DNA of 37,444 nucleotides from Pedosphaera sp. (GTDB taxonomy: Bacteria > Verrucomicrobiota > Verrucomicrobiia > Limisphaerales > SIBH01). This document shows positions 20,135 through 34,022 of the stretch, piece by piece. The position numbers and the translations under genes are program-made. The notes under the pieces were generated by a model. The model saw only the letters and a program-made list of their open reading frames with translations. It was not told the DNA's origin and made no database searches. The stretch lies in contig SIBH01000007.1 in NCBI GenBank assembly GCA_009695285.1, positions 1 to 37,444 of the forward strand, written 5' to 3'. Each line of letters opens with the position of its first letter. The stretch's first letter is position 1.

Positions 20135-21313
20135 CTATTTGACCCGGTTGTCCGCCGGCCAGAGCATTTCCTCCCAGGGCAAATCGTCGAGGGGCCAGTT
20201 CGCGGCGAGGAGACGGAGGATGCGGCGGGGGCGAAATCCTTCGAGCAGGTTCTCGGGCTTGATGACGAACTGCAGGCCGCTGCTGCCGGGGGCCGCGGGA
20301 ACGCTCCGGATCTCCAGCACCTCGCAATACATCCGGTCATTGATCTGATCGTAGGCGCGCAGTGAATCTTCCGCCACGAGCGCGGCGACGCGGGACTTCA
20401 GTTTGAAATCGTTCGTCAGCGCGGCATTGAAACCGCCAAAGAGCGTGATGGTGAGGTGGCTTTTTTCGTTGTCCACGGTGTTGATCCAGCCGGCCAGCCC
20501 GTGGGTTTTCTGGTGGGCGCGATGCACTTCGGTCTGGCGCGCGGCGGCGAGTTGGCGGCTTTCGTCGTCGAGCCAGATGTCCGTGCAGTGGCCGGGGCCT
20601 TTGAGCGTGGCCACGGTGATGTTGACGAGCAGGGTCTGGCCGGCGGCGAGGTTGGTGAGCGCGCCGAAGCCGCGGCCCTGCCAGACGCGAGTGGCGGCGT
20701 TCACCTTGAAGACGGTGGGCTTCTCGTCGGCCTTGTGGTCGGCGAGCGAGAGGCCGGTGACGGTGATGTTGCCCTTGTTCAGGTCGATGGCATCCAGCCG
20801 CCACGCGCGCTGCTGGCGCTGGTGAAAACTGAAATCGTCCTCCAGCAGAAACCCCGAACTAAAACCGCCTTTGACCGGGCGGCCCTGCTTCGCGTCGAAG
20901 TAGAACTGCCCGTGCAGGTGCGTGCCGATGGGCAGGTCGCGCAATTCGGCGGGTGCGCCGTGGTAACGAAAGGTGCCGTAGGGCAGCATCGCGAAGAACA
21001 TCGCGCGGTCGTAGTCGTCGGTGCGCTGGTCGTTCCGGCGGTCGGGGCGGAGCTGGCCGGTGCGGTTGACGTGATCCATCTGGATCAGCTCGCCGGCGAT
21101 GTAATGCGCGGAGCCTTCCGGTGGAAATTGACCAGGTTGGATCTGGTAGGTCGTGGGTTTCTTGTCACCGTCGGCGGCAGTTGCGAATGACGAAACCAGA
21201 ATGACGAATGACGAAACGGCGGCGGCGAGCGCCAATGACAAATGGCGAGGGGCGAGTGCCGAAAAGGACCGTCGGTCGATGTTTCGCTCAGTGATGCAGT
21301 CGTGGTTCGTCAT
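20135..21313 (-). CDS. secreted hypothetical protein
   Basis: Long ORF with signal peptide HLSLALAAAVSSFVILVSSFATAADG, 6 nt upstream of the next gene. The extreme N-terminus (MTNHDCITERNIDRR) lies in repeat sequence, so the true start may be downstream. Confidence 0.8.
   Translation of the reverse strand: MTNHDCITERNIDRRSFSALAPRHLSLALAAAVSSFVILVSSFATAADGDKKPTTYQIQPGQFPPEGSAHYIAGELIQMDHVNRTGQLRPDRRNDQRTDDYDRAMFFAMLPYGTFRYHGAPAELRDLPIGTHLHGQFYFDAKQGRPVKGGFSSGFLLEDDFSFHQRQQRAWRLDAIDLNKGNITVTGLSLADHKADEKPTVFKVNAATRVWQGRGFGALTNLAAGQTLLVNITVATLKGPGHCTDIWLDDESRQLAAARQTEVHRAHQKTHGLAGWINTVDNEKSHLTITLFGGFNAALTNDFKLKSRVAALVAEDSLRAYDQINDRMYCEVLEIRSVPAAPGSSGLQFVIKPENLLEGFRPRRILRLLAANWPLDDLPWEEMLWPADNRVK
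21183..21220. repeat. GAATGACGAAAC-type repeat overlapping the signal-peptide codons of the 20135-21313 ORF
   Basis: GCGAATGACGAAACCAGAATGACGAATGACGAAACGGC; related inverted copies at about 21305-21325 (TTCGTCATTCGTCATTTC) and 22122-22147 (ATTCGTCATTCTGGCTTCGTCATTTC). Confidence 0.85.
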
Positions 21314-21345
21314 TCGTCATTTCGCATAATTCCTGAAACGCCGTG

Positions 21346-22020
21346 TCATTTTGCGGACGGGTGCGCTCGTTGCAATTTCTCGGGCAGTTCCTTCAGCGGG
21401 GTGACTTCGGTTACGTCATCGTAATACCACGCCTTGCCGGTGGTCTTCTTGTATCCGACCACGCTGGTCGGATACTTCGTGCCGGCCGGCAAGTTGGTCC
21501 AACCCGAGAACCGATGGATGTCGCTGCGCCAATCGATGCGGGCGAGCAGGTCGTTGGTCCGGCTGAAGTAGAGTTCCATTGCCGGTTTCACGCTGCCGCT
21601 GATGCGCAGACCCCAGAGTTCCATGTCGCCATCCTTCAAGTCCTGGACGACTTCAATCGTCGAGACCGAGTCGGTGAGCGCGCCGAGTGTCCAAGCCCAG
21701 ACCAGGAACCTCGCGGGTTCATCCTCGCGTTCCGAGAACCCGCCGGGTGCCTTGAGCCACCAGTGACGCGGCGCGTCCATGACGCTTTCGCGTTTCGCGC
21801 CGAAGCCGGGGTCCTTCTCGCCCAACCGCACATGATCCTTGAAGGTGAAGTAGGCCAATAGATTGGTTCTGCCGCCAGCAGCCTGAATCGCCTTTTGCAT
21901 CAGAGGCCGCGCCGCAGGCGAAACAGTTCCGATATCTCCACGTTGGTGCGGTCCATCGGCGCAGGGCGCGGCCAGCGGAAGCAGCAAGCCAGCGTGCAGG
22001 GCAAGGAGCAGTGGTTTCAT
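21346..22020 (-). CDS. secreted hypothetical protein (224 aa)
   Basis: Signal peptide MKPLLLALHAGLLLPLAAPCADG, intact ORF in a co-directional gene series. Confidence 0.8.
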   Translation of the reverse strand: MKPLLLALHAGLLLPLAAPCADGPHQRGDIGTVSPAARPLMQKAIQAAGGRTNLLAYFTFKDHVRLGEKDPGFGAKRESVMDAPRHWWLKAPGGFSEREDEPARFLVWAWTLGALTDSVSTIEVVQDLKDGDMELWGLRISGSVKPAMELYFSRTNDLLARIDWRSDIHRFSGWTNLPAGTKYPTSVVGYKKTTGKAWYYDDVTEVTPLKELPEKLQRAHPSAK

Positions 22021-22145
22021 TGAATTTTGAGGACGGGTTTGCGCTTTCGCGAGTGGGAAGGGAGTGGCTGCCTATGCCAAAAACGACCCGGGGTCGATGG
22101 TTCATTCAGTGATGCAAAGTGATTCGTCATTCTGGCTTCGTCATT

Positions 22146-23546
22146 TCAAACGATTTCCGAAACCGGTCCGAGGCTGTCCACGAACTTCTCCGACTTCACA
22201 TCCATCTTCTGCAGCATGGTAAGGAGCAGATTACTGACGCGGGCCTTGTCGTCCGCCGGCTTGCCGCAGACGCCGTAGTGCGCCCCGGCGTTGGCGAGAT
22301 CGTAGGATTTGATTTTCGGAAGGTTGTAATCGAGGTGCTGGCCGTGCTGAAAACCAAGGGCGCGGCCGCCGGCCAGAATCGTGGGCAGGTTGGCGTTGCC
22401 GTGGCTGTGGCCGTAGCTCATGCCGCTGCCGAACAGAACCATCGTGCGGTCAAGCAGCGACTCGTCGCCATCGCGCACCGCCGTGAGCTGGTCCAGGAAA
22501 TAGGAGAACTGCTCGGTGATGAACGCATCGCTCTTGCTCAGGCGGGCCATGATTTCCGGATCGCCATTGTGATGGGACAGCTCGTGCCGTGTCTGGGTGA
22601 TGCCGATTTCGGGAATCGCCAGCCCGTTGCCCTCCGTGCCGCTCATGTAGGTGATGACGCGCGTCATGTCCGTGCGCAACGCGAGCACGATGAGATCATA
22701 CATCGTGCGGTAATACTCGCCAGCCTGCGACTTGGAGACATCGCGCTGGAAGTGGCCGGTGACGGCTGGATCGAGCTTGGGCTTGGGCACGTTGAGCCAG
22801 GCATCCAGCCGCTCGGTGCGCACCTCGACTTCGCGGACGGCGGTCAGATATTCGTCGAGCTTGGTGCGGTCCTCGCCGCCAAGCGTGCGGCGGAGCGAGC
22901 GGGCGTCGTCCAGCACGGCGTCGAGCACGCCGTGCCGGCGGTTGAGACGGCGGCGGCGCACCTCGACACCGCCCGACTCCTCGCCAAAGAGGCGGTTGAA
23001 GACGTTGCGTGGATTGTCCTCGGCGGGCAGCGGCACCCCGTCGCGCGACCACGAGAGGGTATTGATGACATTGCCCGGTGCGCCGGTCCCGCTGGCGAGT
23101 GAAAGTTCGAGCGACGAAAACCGCGTGTGAATCGACGTCGCCTCGGCCATGAGTTGGTCGCAGGAAACGCTGTTGCGATACGCGCCACCCTCCTGGCTAA
23201 GCTTCGCGCCGGTGAGCCACAGATCGGCGCAGACGTGGGCCGTGCCGAGGCCGCCAGGATGATGCAGGCCGCTGATGGGGGTGAGATTCGCGCGATGCTT
23301 TTCGAGCGAGCGCATCGGCGCGCTGAACTCGTAGTCGCGCCCGGCCTTGGTGATCTGCCAGGTGAGCACATTCACACCGTTGGGAATGTAAACGAAGACG
23401 GAGCGCCGCGGTTTGGCGGCGGTCCCGGCGGCGAGAGCACGCAGCGGATTCATGCAGTCCAGCAGCGGCAGGGCGACGGTCGCGCCGAGGCCGCGCAGGA
23501 AGTGGCGGCGGTTAAGGAGCCAGCGCTGGGAGAGGATGTTGCTCAT
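22146..23546 (-). CDS. DUF1552-domain protein with Tat-like leader
   Basis: [98 protein letters not shown]. Confidence 0.93.
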
Positions 23547-23561
23547 AAATTTGTTTCGTGT

Positions 23562-26066
23562 TCAGCGTTGCTGGAAGAGATCGGAAACCACGAGTGCTTC
23601 GACAATTTTACGAAGCCGATAGTCCGTCGCCTTGCTTTGCGAGGCAAGCGCGGACAGGGCACGGCGATCGTCGATCGTCATCGCGCGGCGCAGCGCGTAG
23701 GTGCCGAGCTTCTCGACGAAGGCGGCGGCGAACTTGTCCGTGTCCGCGACGAGCAACCGTCGCAGTTCGGCGCCATCAGCGAACTTGCGTCCGTCGGGCA
23801 GCACGCCGCTCGGATCGACTTTGGGATTCGCACCCGCCCCGTCCCGGACGACTTCTTCCGTGCGCCAGCGGCCGATGGCGTCGTAGTTGTCGAAGGCCAC
23901 GCCGAGGGGATCGATCTTGCGATGGCAGGCCGCGCAGTTCTCGTCGCTTTTGTGCGCTTCAAGTTTCATGCGCAACGTCGCCTTGGGCTGGCCGGCGGGT
24001 GTGGGCTCGATGGGCTTCACATTGGCTGGCGGCGGAGGCGGCGGTTTGTTGAAGATGGTTTCGAGCACCCATTTCCCGCGATGCACTGGCCGGTGTCGCT
24101 GGCCGTCGGAGGTGAGGCTGAGCACGCCGGCCTGGGTGAGCAGTCCGCCGCGATGATCTTCCGGTCGCAACGCCACGCGCTGGAACTCATCCCCCTTCAC
24201 CCCCGCGATGCCGTAGTGCTCGGCGAGCCGGGCGTTCAACAGGGTCCAGTCCGAGCTGAGAAATTCGCGCACGCTCAGATTTTTCTCCAGCACCTCGCGG
24301 AAATATTCCGTGCCCTCGGCGATCATGCTTTTCTCCAGATGCGCGTCGTAGTCGGGATAAAGCTTTTTATCCGGCGGAAACATGCCCACGTGTTTCAACT
24401 GCAGCCACTGCTTCGGGAAGCCGGTGGTGAACCGCGCCGCCCTAGGATCGCGCAGCATCCGCGCGACCTCGCCGCGCAGGACCGACGGCTGGTGCAAACC
24501 ATTCGTCCGCGCCAGATCAAAGAGACGGTCGTCAGGCATGGTGCTCCAGAGAAAATAGGAAAGACGCGCGGCGAGTTCCCAGTCGTTGAGGCGCGGGTTG
24601 ACCTGGCCGGCGGAGCCTTCGACGAGGTAGAGAAAATCCTTGGCGCACAAAGTCGCGACGAGCGCGGCCTTGACCGCCGACTCAAACTTCTCGCCGCTCT
24701 GCAACTCGCTCTCGACGAGCTTGACCAACCGTCCGATCTCGTCGGCCCGCGCGGGACGCCGGAAGGCCCGGCTGGCGAAGCTGGTCACGATCTCCTTCGC
24801 CTGCGCCACGTCCTGCGTGCCGCCGGTCGAAAAAAACTTCTGCTGCTGCGGCGTGGGCCACGTCGATTGCAATGGGCCTTCCACTTCCACGAAGTCCACG
24901 ATGAGGAAAGGCCGGAGGGGAACGCCGTCTTCGTCGGTCAGCTTCCACTGCCAGGGCTGACGTCCCGTGGGCGAGTCCTTGATGGTGGTGAAAAAACGGC
25001 CGGCGTCGTAACGGCCGTGCCGCGGCAGATTCGACGGGCCGGGCGCCTCGCAGGTCAGGCGGATGTCGCGACGCCCGGCCGGAACGTGAAAGGTAAAATC
25101 GAGCGTCGCGGGCTGATCCTCCGGTGTGACCACGTCCTGCTCAAAAAGCATCCGGTCGAGATCCTTCGCGTAAACAGAGACGTGTGGCGCCCGGCCCAGT
25201 GGCGGCTTCATCCCGCTCACCTTGATCCTCATGCGATAATCACCCGACACGGGAAAATCCGTGCTGACATCCAGCCCGTCATGAGGCCAGATCTCCACGC
25301 GGGCCTGGTCGGCAATCCCCAGTTTCTCCGCCTTGGGCCGCTGGCCGTGATACCGGAGGTCCCAGACATCTTTGCGCTTGGAAAACTTTTTCGGCGCGAC
25401 CGTCGGCAGGGCCTCGTTCAACACCGCCTCGGCGGCGGCGAAATATTTCTCCACATGCGCGGGCGAGAGCGACAGCACCGAGCCGATGCGCTCAAAACCC
25501 TGCCAGCTCGGATCCTCCGGCAGGCCGGTCGGATCGGTGGCGTCGAAATTCACCCCAAGCAGATCGCGGATCGTGTTCGCGTATTCCTCGCGGGTCAGTT
25601 TGTGGAAGGTCACACGCTCGCGCCTGGCGAGCCGGGTCTTCTCGCCCTCCTTGATCTGCCCCGCGATCCATTCCGCGATGCGCGCCGCCTCCGCCACCTT
25701 GGGCTTCGGCTCATCCTCCGGCGGCATTTCGCCGGTGCTGATCCGCTCCATCACATCCGCCCAGTGCGAGGCGGAAAGCGGCGCGGCGAAATCCCGGGAC
25801 AGAGTGTCCAATCGGAGATTTCCCTTCTGCTTCTTCTCCCCGTGACAGCGGACGCAGTGCTCGGCGAGGAACGGCTTCACGACCGTGTCAAAGCCCGGCG
25901 AGGCCGCGGCAGAGATTCCGAGCGACGCGGCCAAGATGCAGGCGATGGTTCGGAGTGGCGGCATTAGTCGCATATTGGCGACAAGGTTGAACCGGCGACA
26001 AGGAGCAAAATGTCTTCGGTCAGGTGTCGTCATTGTCGAAGTTTTCCTTGGACACAATGTCAACAA
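23562..26066 (-). CDS. DUF1592-family (DUF1587/1588/1592/1595/1585) cytochrome-like protein
   Basis: VVKPFLAEHCVRCHGEKKQKGNLRLDTL; RISTGEMPPEDEPKP; LTREEYANTIRDLLGVNFDATDPTGLPED; LNDWELAARLSYFLWSTMPDDRLFDLA; NCAACHRKIDPLGVAFDNYDAIGRWR; two CXXCH. True start may be an internal Met (MRLMPPLRTIACILAASLGISAAAS). Confidence 0.93.
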   Translation of the reverse strand: MLTLCPRKTSTMTTPDRRHFAPCRRFNLVANMRLMPPLRTIACILAASLGISAAASPGFDTVVKPFLAEHCVRCHGEKKQKGNLRLDTLSRDFAAPLSASHWADVMERISTGEMPPEDEPKPKVAEAARIAEWIAGQIKEGEKTRLARRERVTFHKLTREEYANTIRDLLGVNFDATDPTGLPEDPSWQGFERIGSVLSLSPAHVEKYFAAAEAVLNEALPTVAPKKFSKRKDVWDLRYHGQRPKAEKLGIADQARVEIWPHDGLDVSTDFPVSGDYRMRIKVSGMKPPLGRAPHVSVYAKDLDRMLFEQDVVTPEDQPATLDFTFHVPAGRRDIRLTCEAPGPSNLPRHGRYDAGRFFTTIKDSPTGRQPWQWKLTDEDGVPLRPFLIVDFVEVEGPLQSTWPTPQQQKFFSTGGTQDVAQAKEIVTSFASRAFRRPARADEIGRLVKLVESELQSGEKFESAVKAALVATLCAKDFLYLVEGSAGQVNPRLNDWELAARLSYFLWSTMPDDRLFDLARTNGLHQPSVLRGEVARMLRDPRAARFTTGFPKQWLQLKHVGMFPPDKKLYPDYDAHLEKSMIAEGTEYFREVLEKNLSVREFLSSDWTLLNARLAEHYGIAGVKGDEFQRVALRPEDHRGGLLTQAGVLSLTSDGQRHRPVHRGKWVLETIFNKPPPPPPANVKPIEPTPAGQPKATLRMKLEAHKSDENCAACHRKIDPLGVAFDNYDAIGRWRTEEVVRDGAGANPKVDPSGVLPDGRKFADGAELRRLLVADTDKFAAAFVEKLGTYALRRAMTIDDRRALSALASQSKATDYRLRKIVEALVVSDLFQQR

Positions 26067-26167
26067 ATTGACCGGCTCCGGTGTGTTGCAGCCATTATTG
26101 GGGGGTGTTTGACACGATTTTTTCTCGAAAGACGGCTCGTGGCATATCCACTGCTAAAGCCTTCGCC

Positions 26168-26479
26168 ATGCATGACAAATCTTTTTGCAATGCCATGAAC
26201 CAGATCGCCGCCGAGGCCGAGGCGGAGCAAATTCTCGAACGACGCCGGATTCATCGGCGGGAACGAAACGCCAAAATCTTTTTCTGGGTCAGGTCGGTCC
26301 TGCTGCTCGCCGTGCTAGGAGGACTGGTCGCCTACCGCGTGGAATTGCAAAAATATGTTTCGGAAAATCTGCTCACCTCTCCCAAACCGACGATCGACAG
26401 CAAGACCGGAGCCGTCCTGGCGGGCATTCAGGAAAACGCCGGCAAGCGCGACAAGGCGCTCGAAACACTCATGAAGTAG
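26168..26479 (+). CDS. small single-pass membrane protein, unknown function
   Basis: MHDKSFCNAMNQIAAEAEAEQILERRRIHRRERNAKIFFWVRSVLLLAVLGGLVAYRVELQKYV...; one TM helix. Start could also be 26195. Confidence 0.6.
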   Translation: MHDKSFCNAMNQIAAEAEAEQILERRRIHRRERNAKIFFWVRSVLLLAVLGGLVAYRVELQKYVSENLLTSPKPTIDSKTGAVLAGIQENAGKRDKALETLMK

Positions 26480-26553: not shown

Positions 26554-26610
26554 TTACTCCACCACGAGCACACCGCGCATGATGCGCCAGTGGCCGGGGT
26601 AACATGCAAC
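26554..26610 (-). pseudogene. relic of the 3' end of an azurin/plastocyanin-type domain gene
   Basis: Reverse strand reads ...YPGHWRIMRGVLVVE*. Core 26562-26595 matches 33/34 nt of the 3' end of the intact gene (30707-30740). No upstream azurin coding sequence remains. Confidence 0.75.
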
Positions 26611-26758
26611 TGCGCTGGGGCACGTGGTCAACGCATAACAGGGTGAGATCAAAAATTTACGCAGGGTGGCTGGGACGGAGCGTGGACGCGGTTGGGATAC
26701 GTCTCATGTGATTTTCTGGGCGCAACTGAATCGTCCCAACGGAGCATGAATGGCCCAC

Positions 26759-29700
26759 TTATTGCCCCACCTCGTAAACATGCAACACCACCGGCGCGTT
26801 GCCGTAACCCAGTCGCTCGCCGCCGTAACGCTGATACCAATCGACACCGGTGAAATCGTCCGTGAAAGAGCCATCCTCGGCCGCGAGCACGCGATCCTCG
26901 AACAGCACGCGTACCGACGTGCCCTTTTTCAAGCCGGCCACAAAAAATTTTGTCCGGGCCAACAATTCCGGTGCCGGGCGATCCTCGTGTTCCCCAAACA
27001 CCACCGTCTCCTTTCCATCCGGCGTCACCAGCACCGTCCGCGCCCACCACACGCGGCCGCCGTCATGCACGAACGCGACGCCATCCAGCAACTTGTCCGC
27101 GGCGCCGATGCGCTCCAGCGGCACCTCCAGTTTCACCCATTCGCCCGCGCCCGGCAACGCGCCCATCGGCGTGGTGGCACCCGGCACGTACGCGAGCGCA
27201 TACGGCTCCACCTTGTTGCCCCAACCGAGGAAGCCGCGCGCGTGCCGGTAAAAGGTCCGCAAAAACCAGAACGCCCGTTCATTGTTCGACCGCAGCCCCT
27301 CCCAATCCACCGCGCCCCACGCCGCCCCGTGCGTCCAGCGGCCATCCGCCTTCACCAGCGCCATGACGTTCTTCGGCGGCGCCCCGTTATCCAGCTTGAT
27401 CCACGTCACCAGCCTGCTCCCGGCAGGCCACTTCTTCGCGTTGGGCAAATACGCGATCCCGTGCGGCACCCAACTCAAGGAATCCGGCTCGCCCGTCGCG
27501 TGATAGCCGTCCGATTCATCACGAAAGATATGCGGATCAACCGTGACCCGCGCCCGCCCGCCCGGCGACGCTTCCGTCGGCGTCCCGCGCCAGTTGCCAA
27601 AGGTCAATCCATGCGTCGTCGCCGCGATGATGACCGTTTTGCCGGCCGCCTTTCGCGTCATGTATTCGATGCCCGGCTCGATCGTGACGGCTGGCGGCTT
27701 CTCCCGCGAATAGATCGCCGGCTGCAGACGCAGCAGTTCCCCGTGCAATCCGCGAAAGGTCGAAGGATCGGCCGGTCCGTGCGCCAACTGCCAGCCCCGG
27801 GTCCCTCGCATCAACTCGACGAACACGTGATACCGCCATCGTTCGTATGGCACACTTTCGTACATCTGCGGGCGCAGCCACACGACTTTTTTTTGCCCCT
27901 CGACCAGCGGCCGCAAATCCGTATGCACCGGCGCGGGATACCACGGCTCCGTCTCGGGATCGTAAATGTCGAAGAAAGGAGCACGCTCGAATTCGAGACG
28001 GTTCCAATAGCCCCCGTGCCCCGTCATCACCGGCTTGCCCGTCGCTGCGCGCAACTGCTCGACCTCCGCTTTGACATCGTCAAGCTGCTTTGGCGTCATG
28101 GCCGTGAAATACGCGAACGCCTCCTCCGGTCCGCGCGACACCGCCGCCACCATCGGCGCGGTGCGCAAGTAAGCCAGATGTTCCGGCGGCCACGGCTTCG
28201 CGCCCGGCGGCAGAAACACCGTGGAAGCATACAGCCCGCTCTTCCACAATGTCTCCAGTTGCGCCTGTGGCATAAACTTCCCCTGCTCGACATGCCGCAC
28301 GCAGTTCGCATCCCAGAGCGCCCGCGTGCCCAGGTTGCCACCGTGCCGGTCGTAAAGTCCCCACGGCTTCAGATTCGTCAGGTCGTAATACTTCCCCGAC
28401 TCCGCCGGCCCGTCGTAAACCGGATTGTGTCCGTAGCTCACGCCCCACGGCATCCACGGCCGGCCGTTGATGAGAAAATCCCCGTCCTTGTTGATCCGCG
28501 CCGACTCGATGGCCGGCTGCGGCCCGTCATGTGCCTGCCGGCAAAACGGCGACGACAGCACGCTCCACGACGCCTGGCCCGCGCCGTCCACCGTGCTGAC
28601 GCGCAGCACCCAGTTGCGCTGCGGATCATTGAACGGCTGCAACGGCAGAAACGAGACGTCCAACTCCGTGACCAGCAGATTGCGGAAATCATCCAGCATC
28701 CCGACGGGAATTCTCGTCCGCTGTTGCGCAATCGCCTCGGGCGTCGCGGGCATCGTGAAGGTCTTCAACACCTCCCCGGTTCCGCGCCGCAAAACTTCCA
28801 GTCGCAGTTCCTTCACCCGCGCCAACTCCGCGGCCGTAAGCCCGAGATTTACACGAACGAACTGCTTTTGTTCCGGGTGCAAATAAAGCGAACCCAACTC
28901 CAGATCCAGCGGCACGGTCCACGTCGCGACGGGCCAGCGTGAGGAAGCCATCACCCGCTGCCGGTGATCGCTCAGCAATAAACCAAACGTCCGCTCCCCA
29001 TAAGCCCGCCCCACGCCGGACAAATCATACGGCATCCGAATCAATCCGCGCGCGCCAACCGGCAGCGGCGTCATCCCCCCGATCATCTTGGGCGCCGCGT
29101 CGCCGGCACCTTCCTCGAGACGGACGGTCAAACCCTTCTCCGCCGGGGGATTCACCAGCTCGGCCGTGACGAAATTAGCTCCCAACAACTGCTCCCCCAA
29201 ATCCAGTTTCTCCAAACGCACCCCGCTCTCTGCTGGCACCGGCGGCGCGGGCTTGACCCCGCGCGCCTGCAATTCTGCCGACGAACTCTCCGGCTCGAAC
29301 ACCGCCACGTCATCCCACCACACTACGCCCGCCGCGTTCTGCTGCGGCTGATGCCCCGTTCCGCCGAGCGTGAACCCGTTCATCCCGCGCGCACACAGCT
29401 TGATCCGGATCGACTTCAACGGCGCCGTCGGCGCGAACACCTGCCGGATCAGCCGCCAGTCCTCGGTGCCAAACGAGAGTGGATTTTTCTGGATGAAATT
29501 GTATCCGTTCAGCCGCTTCCCGTTCTCGTCCTCCGCATCGAGCTGCAACATGCACAACTGATGCGTCTTGATCCACGCCCGCACCTCGATCTGGCGTGGC
29601 GCGGTCTGATTCAGCGCCACCGCGTCGCCCGTCACGCACACCTCGTCACCCGTCGGCACCGTCATCCGCAGCGAACCCTTCCCACCGTGCGGCACCAGAT

Positions 29701-30673
29701 TATCCCGCTCGACCGTGCCGCGATTGTCCGAGTTGGCGTTGTGCCAGGTGTTGAAAATATAATAAATCCCCGGCGGAAAATACCGGTAGCGCTGCGCCCG
29801 CGACCAGCCCTTCGGATACTCCACTCCATCCGGCTCGAACCCGCCGTGTGGCATGAGATTTGGCGCGCCCGGCCCCGGCTCCGTCACCGCCGCCTCGATC
29901 AATTCCACCGAGCCGCCCGTCCCGGCTGCATAGCTAATCTGGCATTCCAACGCCATCGGCAACAGCGCGCCCTTGCCCGAAAATTCCTTGTCCTTCTGCG
30001 CCGCCGCGAGCCACTCCGCCGCCGGCAGCTTCACCTCCACCGTCCGCGCCGCGTAAGTCCCCTCCGGCACCGCCACGCTCGCGCTCGCGATCCGCGCCTT
30101 CGCCGCCGCACCCTCGTTCCAGCCCAGATTCGCCTCCGCACTCAGCCATGATACCGTGAGCGTCACCGCGCCCAACGGCACCTCCTTCGCCACCAGTCGC
30201 ACCGCAAACGTCACATCCCGCACCATTGCCAGTCCGTTCGTGCTTCGCATCGCGACCGCGTCCGGATACCCGCCCGCGTCCGGCCAGCCCACCAGCTTTG
30301 TCGGATTGTGAACCGTCACCCAATTTACCGCCTGCACGGCGCGCGATCCCGGACTCAAAAACACCCGCCGTCCGCCGCGCGGCAGATCCGTCCCGCGCCA
30401 ATCCCACTTCCCCGTGAACCGCCAGCCGTCCGGGTTGTAATCGCGCCGATTAAAAACCTCCGTCGTGTAATTCCAGTGATGGTTCTTCAACTCGGGCAGC
30501 AGGGTCAGCCAATCATCCTGAAAATTCCCGTTGCGCAGCAGGTTCCCCGGCGCGTGCGCCGCGACCGCCGGCGCGCTGGCCATCGCCAGTGTGCAAAGCC
30601 AAAAAATCGCCCGGAAGCATCGCAGGCAAATTCGCGCATGGCTGAACGAATAAGGCTTTGATTTTGCGTTCAT
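26759..30673 (-). CDS. large secreted protein, possibly carbohydrate-active (CBM-like N-terminal domains)
   Basis: Signal-bearing N-terminus from MNAKSKPYSFSHARICLRCFRAIFWLCTLAMASAPAVAA; repeated LLRNGNFQDDW / LMPHGGFEPDGVEYPKGW and WWDDVAVFEPES motifs typical of lectin/CBM-like sandwiches. Family not assigned. Confidence 0.8.
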   Translation of the reverse strand: MNAKSKPYSFSHARICLRCFRAIFWLCTLAMASAPAVAAHAPGNLLRNGNFQDDWLTLLPELKNHHWNYTTEVFNRRDYNPDGWRFTGKWDWRGTDLPRGGRRVFLSPGSRAVQAVNWVTVHNPTKLVGWPDAGGYPDAVAMRSTNGLAMVRDVTFAVRLVAKEVPLGAVTLTVSWLSAEANLGWNEGAAAKARIASASVAVPEGTYAARTVEVKLPAAEWLAAAQKDKEFSGKGALLPMALECQISYAAGTGGSVELIEAAVTEPGPGAPNLMPHGGFEPDGVEYPKGWSRAQRYRYFPPGIYYIFNTWHNANSDNRGTVERDNLVPHGGKGSLRMTVPTGDEVCVTGDAVALNQTAPRQIEVRAWIKTHQLCMLQLDAEDENGKRLNGYNFIQKNPLSFGTEDWRLIRQVFAPTAPLKSIRIKLCARGMNGFTLGGTGHQPQQNAAGVVWWDDVAVFEPESSSAELQARGVKPAPPVPAESGVRLEKLDLGEQLLGANFVTAELVNPPAEKGLTVRLEEGAGDAAPKMIGGMTPLPVGARGLIRMPYDLSGVGRAYGERTFGLLLSDHRQRVMASSRWPVATWTVPLDLELGSLYLHPEQKQFVRVNLGLTAAELARVKELRLEVLRRGTGEVLKTFTMPATPEAIAQQRTRIPVGMLDDFRNLLVTELDVSFLPLQPFNDPQRNWVLRVSTVDGAGQASWSVLSSPFCRQAHDGPQPAIESARINKDGDFLINGRPWMPWGVSYGHNPVYDGPAESGKYYDLTNLKPWGLYDRHGGNLGTRALWDANCVRHVEQGKFMPQAQLETLWKSGLYASTVFLPPGAKPWPPEHLAYLRTAPMVAAVSRGPEEAFAYFTAMTPKQLDDVKAEVEQLRAATGKPVMTGHGGYWNRLEFERAPFFDIYDPETEPWYPAPVHTDLRPLVEGQKKVVWLRPQMYESVPYERWRYHVFVELMRGTRGWQLAHGPADPSTFRGLHGELLRLQPAIYSREKPPAVTIEPGIEYMTRKAAGKTVIIAATTHGLTFGNWRGTPTEASPGGRARVTVDPHIFRDESDGYHATGEPDSLSWVPHGIAYLPNAKKWPAGSRLVTWIKLDNGAPPKNVMALVKADGRWTHGAAWGAVDWEGLRSNNERAFWFLRTFYRHARGFLGWGNKVEPYALAYVPGATTPMGALPGAGEWVKLEVPLERIGAADKLLDGVAFVHDGGRVWWARTVLVTPDGKETVVFGEHEDRPAPELLARTKFFVAGLKKGTSVRVLFEDRVLAAEDGSFTDDFTGVDWYQRYGGERLGYGNAPVVLHVYEVGQ

Positions 30674-30698
30674 AGGTCCAGCGAGGTTTGTTCCAATT

Positions 30699-33600
30699 CT
30701 ATTCAACCACCAGCACACCGCGCATGATGCGCCAGTGGCCAGGGAACGTGCAAAGGAACGGGTAGGTGCCCGGTGCGACGGGCGCGGTAAAGATCAACTC
30801 GGCTTTCTGTTTCGGCTGAACGAGCCCGGTGGCGTGGAGAATTTTTTTTGATTCGGGGATATAACCCCTGGCCAGGCCGTCCGGCTGGAGGGCCAACTTG
30901 TCGGCGAGCGCACCGATTTCCTCAGCGGAACCGGGGGCGAGAATCAGGAGGTTGTGAATCATTAGGTCGGGATTTTCAAAGATGAGGCGGACTTTCGCAC
31001 CGGCTTTCACCCGCAGTTCCTTGGGCGCAAATTGCATTTTGTTCGGCACTGCCCGGACAATGAGTGCATCACCGAAGGCGGCACTGGCCTTTTCAAACTC
31101 GGCGGCTAGGGCGCTGAGGCTATTGGTGTCGGCGGCGGGGCGCGCGGTGGTGAGGCGCTGGCCGAGCGGATCGTAGAGGAAGACAGGCGGCGGATTCTTG
31201 GTGTTGCGGAACGCGACGTCGATGACATTGAGGCCGGAACGGAGATCGAGCTGGACCTGCTGGTCGTTGATCCACATCGAGTCGGAGGACAGGAGTTGGA
31301 CGCCGTTGACGAGGACGTCGAGATAGCCGTGGCGGACGGAGAGGACGGCCGGCTGCGCGGCCTCGGCTTTGACGAAGGTGCGGCGCGTGCCTTTGCCGAG
31401 GTCGAGCCATTGGGTGAGGCGGGTTTCGGGCGCGATTTCGAGAACGGGGACACTGCGGCCTTTGGCGGGCTTGGTGCCGTGCTTGAGATCGGCCAGCATG
31501 TGTTGCACGTCGGCATGGGTTGTGGTTAGCCCATGCAGCGCGTGCTCGACGGCGGGCACGGCGGGGCGGAGATGTGCAATGGCATCCACGACTTCCATCT
31601 GCACGCGCGGGTGCGGGTCGGCGGCCATGTTGTGAAGGAGGTCGGAGGTGTTCAGCAGGCGGTCGGCCTGGAAGCGGATCATGCGGACGGCGGCGGCGCG
31701 ATGGAGCGGAGATTTTGACTTCAGCAATTCGGCGAGCAGCGCGGGACGGGTCTGTTCCAGTCCCTCGGCGACGAAAAGGGTCTCGAGCGCGGACTGGTCG
31801 AACTCGGGATTCGCGCGGTCAATCCCGGCGATCCATTTGTTCAGGCTCGGCAGCACCGTCGCGCCACCTTTGCGCAGCTCAATGCGCGCGTGATGGCGCA
31901 CGATGTCCTGCGGATGCTGGAGCAGCGCGAGCAGTTCGGAAACAGCGGCTCCTTCGATGCGCGGAAATTTTTTCACCACCGGCTTTGCATTGTGCACCAC
32001 ACGCCAGATGCGCCCGTGGTCGTGGTCCCAGTTCGGGTCGCGCATCGCGTGCTGCGCGTGGCCGATGATGGCGCTGCAAAAGTCCGAGACGTAAAGCGCG
32101 CCGTCGAAGCCGAACGCGAGATCGGCGGGGCGGAAGGCGGCGTTCGTTGAGGAAAAGATATCGAGGCGCTTCGAGCCGCGCATGTTGCCGCGCTCGTAGT
32201 CGTATTTCCAGAGCGAGACGGTGCAGTTGCCAAGGAGCGAGGCACTGGCCATGCCCTGCTGGTAGTCGTCCGGAAAATTCGGACTCGAGATGCTCGCGAT
32301 GCCTGAGCCTTTGCCGTTGTCGCCGGCATTGCCGTAGCCGAAGGGATGATAGACGCCCAGCGGCGTCCAGGTGAGCGCCAGCGTGTCGAGCGGGAGGCCG
32401 TCGCCATACATCTGGAAAATGTTACCCGTGCGGTCATAGGTGATCTTCCACGGATTCGGCGTGTTGCTTTGCCACTCGGTCTCGACGCGCCCGGTGCGCG
32501 GGTTCAGTCGGTAGGTCGTGGCGTCAATCCCGCGCACGACACCGAACGGCGTCTCCAGCGTGGAGCGGTGAAACACGCCATCGCAGAAAAGGACGTGGCC
32601 GATGGGATCGGTCGCGATCATCCCGCCGTGATGTGAGTCGGTCACATCAATGCCGCGAAATAGCTCGCGCTTCGTGTCGGCCTTGCCGTCGCCGTTGGTG
32701 TCAGCCATCAGCCAGAGCTTCGGTTGCTCGGAGATGATGATGCCCTCCTCGGTGAAGGCGACGCCGTCAAGCGCGTCGAGGCCGTCGGCGAAGGTTGTGC
32801 ATTTGTCGGCCTTGCCATCGTGGTCGGTGTCTTCGAGGACGATGATTTTGTCCTGTGGCGGCAGGCCCGGCACGGTGTGGGGAAAGGACGGCATGGTCAC
32901 GACCCAGAGCCGTCCGCGCGCGTCGAAGGCGATTTGCACGGGATTCTTCAGCTCGGGAAATTCCACCTCGGACGCGAAGAGATTCACAGTGTAATCGTCG
33001 GCGACTTTGAACTCCGCCTGCGCCTCGGCGGGCGGCCGGATGATGCCGGTGTTCTTGCCGTCGTCACGGCCTTTGATCGGCGGGGGCGGCTGCAGCCAGG
33101 CCAGCGGAAGGTCAGCGAATTTCTTGCCGGGCGATGCGGCCAACTCATGCACAACGGCCTCGGTCGCGGCAATCATCTGATGGTAACGCGGTATCTCGGC
33201 GTTGTATTCACTCTGGCGCTTGCGAATGCCGTAATAGAGATCCGCGTTCTTTGGGCGGGCAATCTCGGCCACGAAATAGTTTTTCCGTGCGACGGCCTTC
33301 GCCACTTCCACCACGCGGGCCTGGTCCGCTTTCGCGACCGCGGCGTCACCGAGCAGCGCGCGGGCGATGACCTGGGCGGTCTCGTGATTGCCCGTGCCGT
33401 TGAGATGAAGGCCGTTTCCGGTCAGGCGGGTCTTGCTCTTCGCATACTGCTGCTGGCTCGTGGTAAACAAATCCACGAAGACCGCCCCGCGTGCCCCGGC
33501 CGTTTCGCCGATGACTTTTGCGCGGTCCGCCAGATCGCGATTGCGCACTTCGACTTCCGGCACCTGCCCGCCCTTCTCCACCGCCGTCGGCGCGAGCAGC

Positions 33601-34022
33601 ACCAGCTTTGCGCCGGGATGCAGTCGCGCGATCTGGTCGAGATACCCGTCGAGTTGCTTGCGAAAATCCGCCAGTCCGACCGGGCCGGCGAACGCTTCGT
33701 TCATCCCGAAGCCCACGATCACGACTTTAGCCGGCCACTCCTTGAGCAGTGCCTTCATGTAGGCCTCGTAACCCTCGGGCCGGAGCCGATAGCCGACTTC
33801 GTCGCCCGTCCACGCGAAGCTGCGGAAATGCAGTTTCTTGTCCGAATGCGCGAGCTGAACCAGCGCCTCCAGTTCGCCGTGCTCGGCCAGTCGCTCGATC
33901 ATGGAGTTGCCGTAGAAAAGAATCGTGTCACCGGGCTGGAGCGCGATCTGGGCCCGCGCGGAAACGGGCGAGAGAAGGCTGAAGGCAAAAACGGTGACGA
34001 GGAGGGCGAGAAATCGGGTCAT
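30699..34022 (-). CDS. SGNH/GDSL-like hydrolase + PVC 'membrane-bound dehydrogenase' beta-propeller + HEAT-like region + C-terminal azurin-type domain
   Basis: ILFYGNSMIERLAEHGELEALVQLAHSD...VVIVGFGMNEAF; YTVNLFASEVEFPELKNPVQIAFDARGRLWVVTMPSFPH...EDTDHDGKADKCTTFADGLD; C-terminal MIHNLLILAPGSAEEIG...YPFLCTFPGHWRIMRGVLVVE with Cys-x4-His-x3-Met copper ligands. Confidence 0.9.
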   Translation of the reverse strand: MTRFLALLVTVFAFSLLSPVSARAQIALQPGDTILFYGNSMIERLAEHGELEALVQLAHSDKKLHFRSFAWTGDEVGYRLRPEGYEAYMKALLKEWPAKVVIVGFGMNEAFAGPVGLADFRKQLDGYLDQIARLHPGAKLVLLAPTAVEKGGQVPEVEVRNRDLADRAKVIGETAGARGAVFVDLFTTSQQQYAKSKTRLTGNGLHLNGTGNHETAQVIARALLGDAAVAKADQARVVEVAKAVARKNYFVAEIARPKNADLYYGIRKRQSEYNAEIPRYHQMIAATEAVVHELAASPGKKFADLPLAWLQPPPPIKGRDDGKNTGIIRPPAEAQAEFKVADDYTVNLFASEVEFPELKNPVQIAFDARGRLWVVTMPSFPHTVPGLPPQDKIIVLEDTDHDGKADKCTTFADGLDALDGVAFTEEGIIISEQPKLWLMADTNGDGKADTKRELFRGIDVTDSHHGGMIATDPIGHVLFCDGVFHRSTLETPFGVVRGIDATTYRLNPRTGRVETEWQSNTPNPWKITYDRTGNIFQMYGDGLPLDTLALTWTPLGVYHPFGYGNAGDNGKGSGIASISSPNFPDDYQQGMASASLLGNCTVSLWKYDYERGNMRGSKRLDIFSSTNAAFRPADLAFGFDGALYVSDFCSAIIGHAQHAMRDPNWDHDHGRIWRVVHNAKPVVKKFPRIEGAAVSELLALLQHPQDIVRHHARIELRKGGATVLPSLNKWIAGIDRANPEFDQSALETLFVAEGLEQTRPALLAELLKSKSPLHRAAAVRMIRFQADRLLNTSDLLHNMAADPHPRVQMEVVDAIAHLRPAVPAVEHALHGLTTTHADVQHMLADLKHGTKPAKGRSVPVLEIAPETRLTQWLDLGKGTRRTFVKAEAAQPAVLSVRHGYLDVLVNGVQLLSSDSMWINDQQVQLDLRSGLNVIDVAFRNTKNPPPVFLYDPLGQRLTTARPAADTNSLSALAAEFEKASAAFGDALIVRAVPNKMQFAPKELRVKAGAKVRLIFENPDLMIHNLLILAPGSAEEIGALADKLALQPDGLARGYIPESKKILHATGLVQPKQKAELIFTAPVAPGTYPFLCTFPGHWRIMRGVLVVE

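Follow-up and report, generated by a model that had tools for sequence, protein, structure and literature searches.

An orphan azurin tail and an apparently mosaic azurin domain suggest that a large secreted-protein gene was acquired at the 3′ end of an SGNH-propeller-azurin gene in Pedosphaera sp.

The window analyzed here is a 37,444-nucleotide (nt) stretch of Pedosphaera sp. (Verrucomicrobiota; GenBank assembly GCA_009695285.1, contig SIBH01000007.1, positions 1 to 37,444), which is contig C95 of a bin with 114 contigs and 57% completeness. Its minus strand carries gene A (30699..34022), which encodes a 1107-aa secreted protein with SGNH/GDSL, DUF7133 (the propeller of the Planctomycetota-Verrucomicrobiota-Chlamydiota group, PVC), HEAT and azurin/plastocyanin domains as assigned with Pfam and NCBIfam. 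Gene A ends in the sequence here called T1 (30699..30743, minus strand), the last 14 codons and a TAG stop. Behind it lie a large gene, listed as 1319 aa long, and then a second azurin tail, T2 (26554..26611, minus strand). We propose that incoming DNA, composed of a foreign azurin 3′ end and the 1319-aa gene, entered gene A by recombination and displaced its native tail, and we give this account an even chance of being right. What favors it over the alternatives is the azurin domain of gene A, which itself appears mosaic.

The first-pass annotation of the window had noted that positions 26562-26595 and 30707-30740 match at 33 of 34 nt. The match is real and belongs to a longer 45-nt direct repeat (26555-26599 and 30700-30744; 41/45 nt identical, 91%), whose longest exact tract is 29 nt (from 26567 and 30712). 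When the wider flanks were aligned, the similarity continued over one 1-nt gap up to 26609 and 30753 and ended there, with nothing azurin-like ahead of T2. The right copy is the 3′ coding end of gene A, as had been claimed, and the left copy is likewise an orphan tail with no gene body. It encodes ACYPGHWRIMRGVLVVE followed by a stop, and positions 26554-26598 read PGHWRIMRGVLVVE and TAA; the reading frame is broken by a 1-nt insertion just before the tail, and the homology to gene A stops abruptly near 26611, at about the codon of the Cys ligand. No azurin coding similarity, that is, no remains of a second gene body, was found upstream of T2. The window has an orphan 3′ end on the same strand downstream of gene A and the 1319-aa gene, the layout of displaced tails of the rhs or type VI secretion system (T6SS) kind.

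When the right copy was searched against the entire bin, only the T1 and T2 sites were returned, T2 with E = 1.8e-13, so that a match by chance is excluded. Part of the DNA identity is explained by conservation at the protein level, because genomes throughout the order share the azurin end motif CTFPGHWRxMRGVLVVE; DNA similar to T2 was found in 18 other genomes, at 78–94% identity over 33–64 nt. This conservation also means that T2 could stem from any close azurin-tailed gene. A misassembly, or a chimera of strains joined at the conserved tail, is conceivable in a bin as fragmented and incomplete as this one, where a 29-nt exact tract could confuse short-read assembly. We consider such an artifact very improbable: the two copies differ, they are found in a single 37-kb contig and their flanks are unique, a 29-nt tract is rather short to force a join, and the 1-nt insertion in T2 together with the unrelated sequence upstream of it would require an extra join.

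T1 and T2 encode identical residues. Their sense codons differ at 4 of 42 nt, all four differences being synonymous (CCC/CCT, CTC/CTG, GTG/GTT and GAG/GAA), and so is the difference between their stop codons (TAG in T1, TAA in T2). The relatives with which they were compared (G-numbers denote genomes) all belong to the order of the window but to other families. T2 is 4 nt away from T1, 4 from the tail of the G032 orthologue and 4 from that of G066, whereas T1 is 8 nt away from each of the two orthologues; G032 and G066, which represent two other families, carry the T2 state at all four sense sites. Because the distances are additive (4, 4 and 8) and the outgroups share its state, T2 is read as the copy that keeps the ancestral sequence and T1 as the one that changed. 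Could T2 instead be a piece of another azurin gene that is there by coincidence or arrived by a separate transfer? The strong conservation of the end motif throughout the order speaks for it, but T2 has the same protein sequence as T1, stands only 4 nt from T1 and from the two closest orthologues, and differs at 16 of 42 nt from the only other azurin tail in the bin. We regard this origin as very unlikely.

If T2 had been non-coding since the split, ∼4/5 of the changes would be expected on T2. All four fall on the coding copy, for which P is ∼0.0015 if T2 evolved neutrally since then, and T2 was therefore probably coding until recently. This argues against two origins, target-site duplication and a duplication that decayed at once. 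The first-pass annotation had proposed a tandem duplication of an azurin-tailed gene followed by replacement, and an old duplication of which one copy decayed immediately fits poorly; a second azurin-tailed gene of which only the tail survives was retained as a rival and is weighed below. A recent tandem duplication of gene A is not what we observed either, since there is no second body and the tails differ at 4 of 12 degenerate codons, as much as gene A orthologues do between families.

The annotation's other proposal, integration at the 3′ end of the azurin gene, holds in outline but calls for another mechanism. In its simple form, with att-like repeats left by site-specific integration or by duplication of the target site, it would suit 3′-end direct repeats that flank a patchy gene and leave gene A intact. 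We consider this form very unlikely, and it fits poorly on several counts: the 4.1 kb between the repeats is one open reading frame (ORF) of 1304 aa, and a domain search of the interval detected no recombinase, integrase or transposase; no further copy of the repeat turned up in the bin; and decay of T2 at all codon positions, non-synonymous ones included, would be expected, whereas only synonymous differences were seen, placed on the coding branch. An att-type or target-site duplication was rejected on the missing recombinase and the synonymous-only differences. Integration of a kind that reconstructs gene A's 3′ end from foreign DNA, with the native tail remaining downstream, gives the best fit in view of the apparently mosaic domain described next.

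Orthologues of gene A occur in 31 of the 320 genomes of the order (58–86% identity). Synonymous divergence between the window gene (W) and its orthologues is fairly even up to aa ∼984 and then rises: from 0.33 to 0.57 against G066 (248/744 vs. 58/102, p 8e-6), from 0.34 to 0.58 against G153 (251/731 vs. 57/98, p 7e-6) and from 0.35 to 0.48 against G032 (256/723 vs. 49/102, p 0.016). Pairs without W are flat at this position, except G032–G153. MaxChi placed the break at aa 984 against G066 (permutation p 0.0003) and at aa 976 against G153 (p <0.0003), whereas the break of the G066–G153 pair falls elsewhere, at aa 267. The segment beyond the break is the azurin domain (aa 984-1107; 30699..31073, minus strand). 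Its G+C content at third codon positions (GC3) is 0.685, compared with 0.813 in the rest of gene A, and lies below all 616 segments of 124 codons taken from the remainder of gene A and from the other genes of the window, the 1319-aa gene excluded. The domain is thus anomalous and a putative foreign segment.

The tails point the same way: T2 differs from G032 and from G066 at 3 of 12 degenerate codons each, near the value of the gene A body, and T1 at 7 of 12, while GC3 is 0.93 in T2 and 0.71 in T1; such tail-only numbers are small, and the mosaic test carries the weight. In these respects T2 is like the native part of gene A and T1 like the anomalous one. The most economical reading makes gene A a mosaic whose working azurin domain would be foreign and whose native end would be T2.

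The mechanism that most likely produced the scar and the mosaic can be outlined as follows. Native gene A would formerly have ended at T2. The incoming fragment would have carried the 3′ end of a diverged homologue of gene A and, after it, the 1319-aa gene. Pairing with gene A would have taken place about where the azurin domain begins, near aa 984, and the far end of the fragment would have been joined within the native tail, close to the Cys codon (∼26611), with scant or no homology. Gene A would have stayed intact with a foreign azurin domain; the 1319-aa gene would now follow it at a distance of 25 nt, and the native gene's final ∼15 codons would have moved 4.1 kb downstream to become orphan T2. 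A single event would thus account for an intact but mosaic gene A, for the cargo close behind it and for an orphan tail that keeps the same orientation. Homology-facilitated illegitimate recombination (HFIR) would be expected to leave this layout, and so would a single crossover involving a circular intermediate. Conversely, recombination between the two 29-nt tracts could, judging from the sequence, remove the 4145-bp segment and leave gene A whole and in frame.

Several observations weigh against displacement by recombination. No empty site and no donor with the order gene A–1319-aa gene were found among the relatives searched. The azurin-domain tree keeps W in the same position, merely on a longer branch, so that a donor would be a nearby lineage, and the tree identifies none. 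The break coincides with the boundary of the azurin domain, where a lineage-specific change of the domain could mimic a mosaic; the signal is weaker against G032, and the G032–G153 pair also rises near aa 984 (p 0.008). The GC3 of the 1319-aa gene (0.798) is native-like and differs from that of the azurin domain with which it would have been transferred (0.685), and two events are possible. Finally, the native azurin domain is absent upstream of T2, and if T2 is gene A's own tail, the resident DNA deleted (∼0.3 kb) would be much shorter than the insert (∼4.4 kb), unlike typical HFIR products.

The principal rival derives T2 from a second gene with an azurin tail, a tandem paralogue of gene A that was long functional and whose body was recently deleted or replaced by the 1319-aa gene. 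We regard it as possible, though we would not expect it to be correct. All-synonymous differences between T1 and T2 suit two maintained coding copies, and azurin-tailed neighbours on one strand do exist: G155 has two gene A copies 4.7 kb apart (contig C5), and in G132 (contig C10) gene A lies right behind a 30% paralogue. That gene loss can leave only a tail is shown by a 3′ fragment of the 1319-aa gene in G036, described below. However, 30 of the 31 carriers have a single close copy of gene A, and no second close copy was found in the 57%-complete bin. The rival accounts for T2 equally well, but not for the mosaic azurin domain.

Two further loci concern the gene A family. At the G155 locus (L138 3734-15709), the two same-strand paralogues, 63% and 59% identical to the window gene, flank a DUF1501/PSD1 pair on the opposite strand. 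G153 carries an 83–84% orthologue (L139 5956-9294, contig C50), although the rest of its family has only ∼60% versions, and its tail continues into a longer C-terminal extension. This pattern suggests further exchange within the gene A family.

The 1319-aa gene (26759..30673, minus strand) encodes a secreted protein of a family common in metagenome-assembled genomes of Planctomycetota. It had been placed exactly between the repeats, which is not so for the ORF as listed, whose GTG at 30718 overlaps the right repeat; the gene does lie between the copies if it starts at the ATG at 30673. This is the likely start, giving 1304 aa with a signal peptide, 25 nt behind gene A. The gene does not look ancestral: it is present in only 3 of the 320 genomes. 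The relatives of the 1304-aa protein comprise 14 Planctomycetota records, which were placed in the tree, one from Lentisphaerota and two from Verrucomicrobiota. In that tree the window copy and the two Verrucomicrobiota copies form one clade nested inside Planctomycetota, which points to transfer, the gene being a patchy newcomer. In no relative that carries the 1319-aa gene was gene A found near it. Searches of Pfam, NCBIfam and PDB returned no match for the 1304-aa protein, and the AlphaFold model of its central segment (predicted local distance difference test score 35) yielded no usable structure; a glycoside-hydrolase-like role, suggested by motifs, is only a guess.

With BipA as a clock, the 1319-aa proteins of the window and G036 are 83% identical, compared with 87% for BipA. 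Divergence was therefore rejected as proof of a recent transfer between the two lineages. Because its GC3 is native-like and 83% is not above the BipA value, the gene does not appear to be an obviously very recent arrival from the G036 lineage.

In G036 and G052 the 1319-aa gene occupies different loci. A frameshifted 3′ fragment of it lies in G036 (contig C131, L039 5902-6082) where G052 (contig C209, L061 5343-8012) holds the whole gene; G036 has its intact copy elsewhere (L036), with ∼215 nt of downstream sequence in common. The fragment looks like a separate example of gene loss in which the tail alone survives. In both genomes the gene sits in a ∼4.25-kb module with an imperfect ∼105-nt palindrome at the downstream edge and another dispersed repeat upstream (L036 13844-13958 and 9640-9722; L061 7535-7640), and palindromes similar to the one at the edge are dispersed in both genomes.

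The layout in the window has counterparts in known systems. In HFIR one end of the incoming DNA is homologous and the other joins without extended homology, and the exchange brings in foreign DNA at the expense of some resident DNA (PMC3240628). The insert proposed here would likewise meet homologous resident DNA (gene A) at one end and lack extended homology at the other, but what we have is a scar in one bin, with a deletion that would be small relative to the insert. Illegitimate HFIR junctions usually show 3–10 bp of microhomology; in the window, similarity to gene A breaks off near 26611. In Vibrio cholerae, HFIR has been proposed for the displacement of T6SS effectors that leaves orphan immunity genes (Kirchberger 2017, PMC5361080). 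There, too, the incoming module is anchored in a conserved gene and the resident 3′ part is kept downstream as an orphan. In contrast, the window locus is no toxin-immunity locus, its orphan is a 15-codon relic without a likely function, and its old and new tails encode the same residues.

Displacement of rhs C-terminal tips produces a similar layout through a proposed circular intermediate (Jackson 2009, PMC2935791): a constant gene body is kept, a new 3′ end is gained, and the old tip lies downstream, in rhs sometimes frameshifted. The tips of rhs genes, however, share no sequence similarity and are arranged in arrays, whereas the window has a single homologous tail with a single cargo gene. 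Gene A, with its SGNH, propeller and azurin domains and tails of the same residues, does not belong to a polymorphic toxin/immunity or variable-tip family.

Around T2, the ∼150-nt spacer that separates it from the 1319-aa gene (26612..26758, minus strand) resembles neither gene A nor any of the loci compared. On the far side lies a 132-aa small membrane-type ORF (26081..26479, plus strand), convergent with T2, followed by a PSD-type cytochrome protein gene (23562..26066, minus strand), the first of a conserved three-gene unit with 22146-23546 and 20135-21313. None of the relatives examined has an azurin gene adjoining homologues of the 132-aa ORF or the PSD unit, and no sequence downstream of gene A is shared among the genomes compared. 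The T2 flank therefore cannot tell the ancestral junction. The tail itself was seen in no relative as part of an unrelated intact gene. Two other identities for T2 were tried and rejected: an RNA element (no Rfam match) and a clear terminator hairpin after it (fold z −0.23, with a terminator scan no better than shuffles).

Elsewhere in the window, a gene of 224 aa (21346-22020, minus strand) is also patchy, occurring in 15 of 293 genomes. It is bracketed by ∼85-nt direct repeats (21257-21339 and 22075-22163; 81% and 70% identical in two parts), which sit around the HXXSHH 3′ end and intergenic junction. In relatives no ORF separates the HXXSHH gene from the 20135-type gene, its direct neighbour, and G284 has the 224-aa gene on a different contig. 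Apart from a 27-nt inverted match nearby, the junction repeats were not found elsewhere in the bin. These repeats may mark another insertion scar of the same kind.

A broader idea is that the azurin-tail ends of PVC genes serve as recurrent docking sites, whose strongly conserved DNA lets cargo enter by recombination, with the host gene rebuilt on every occasion and orphan tails left, as at rhs, and with 29-nt repeats that would permit clean excision and restore gene A. We consider this a long shot. The scar in the window is one more case of a known process, a type of genome change already known. It offers a readable record of gene acquisition in an uncultured Verrucomicrobiota lineage: ∼45 nt reveal the direction of the event, because the orphan tail keeps ancestral codons and the working gene has an apparently foreign domain. 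Should relatives carry similar scars at further azurin-tailed genes, conserved gene ends would offer large secreted proteins an entry route that needs no mobile element.

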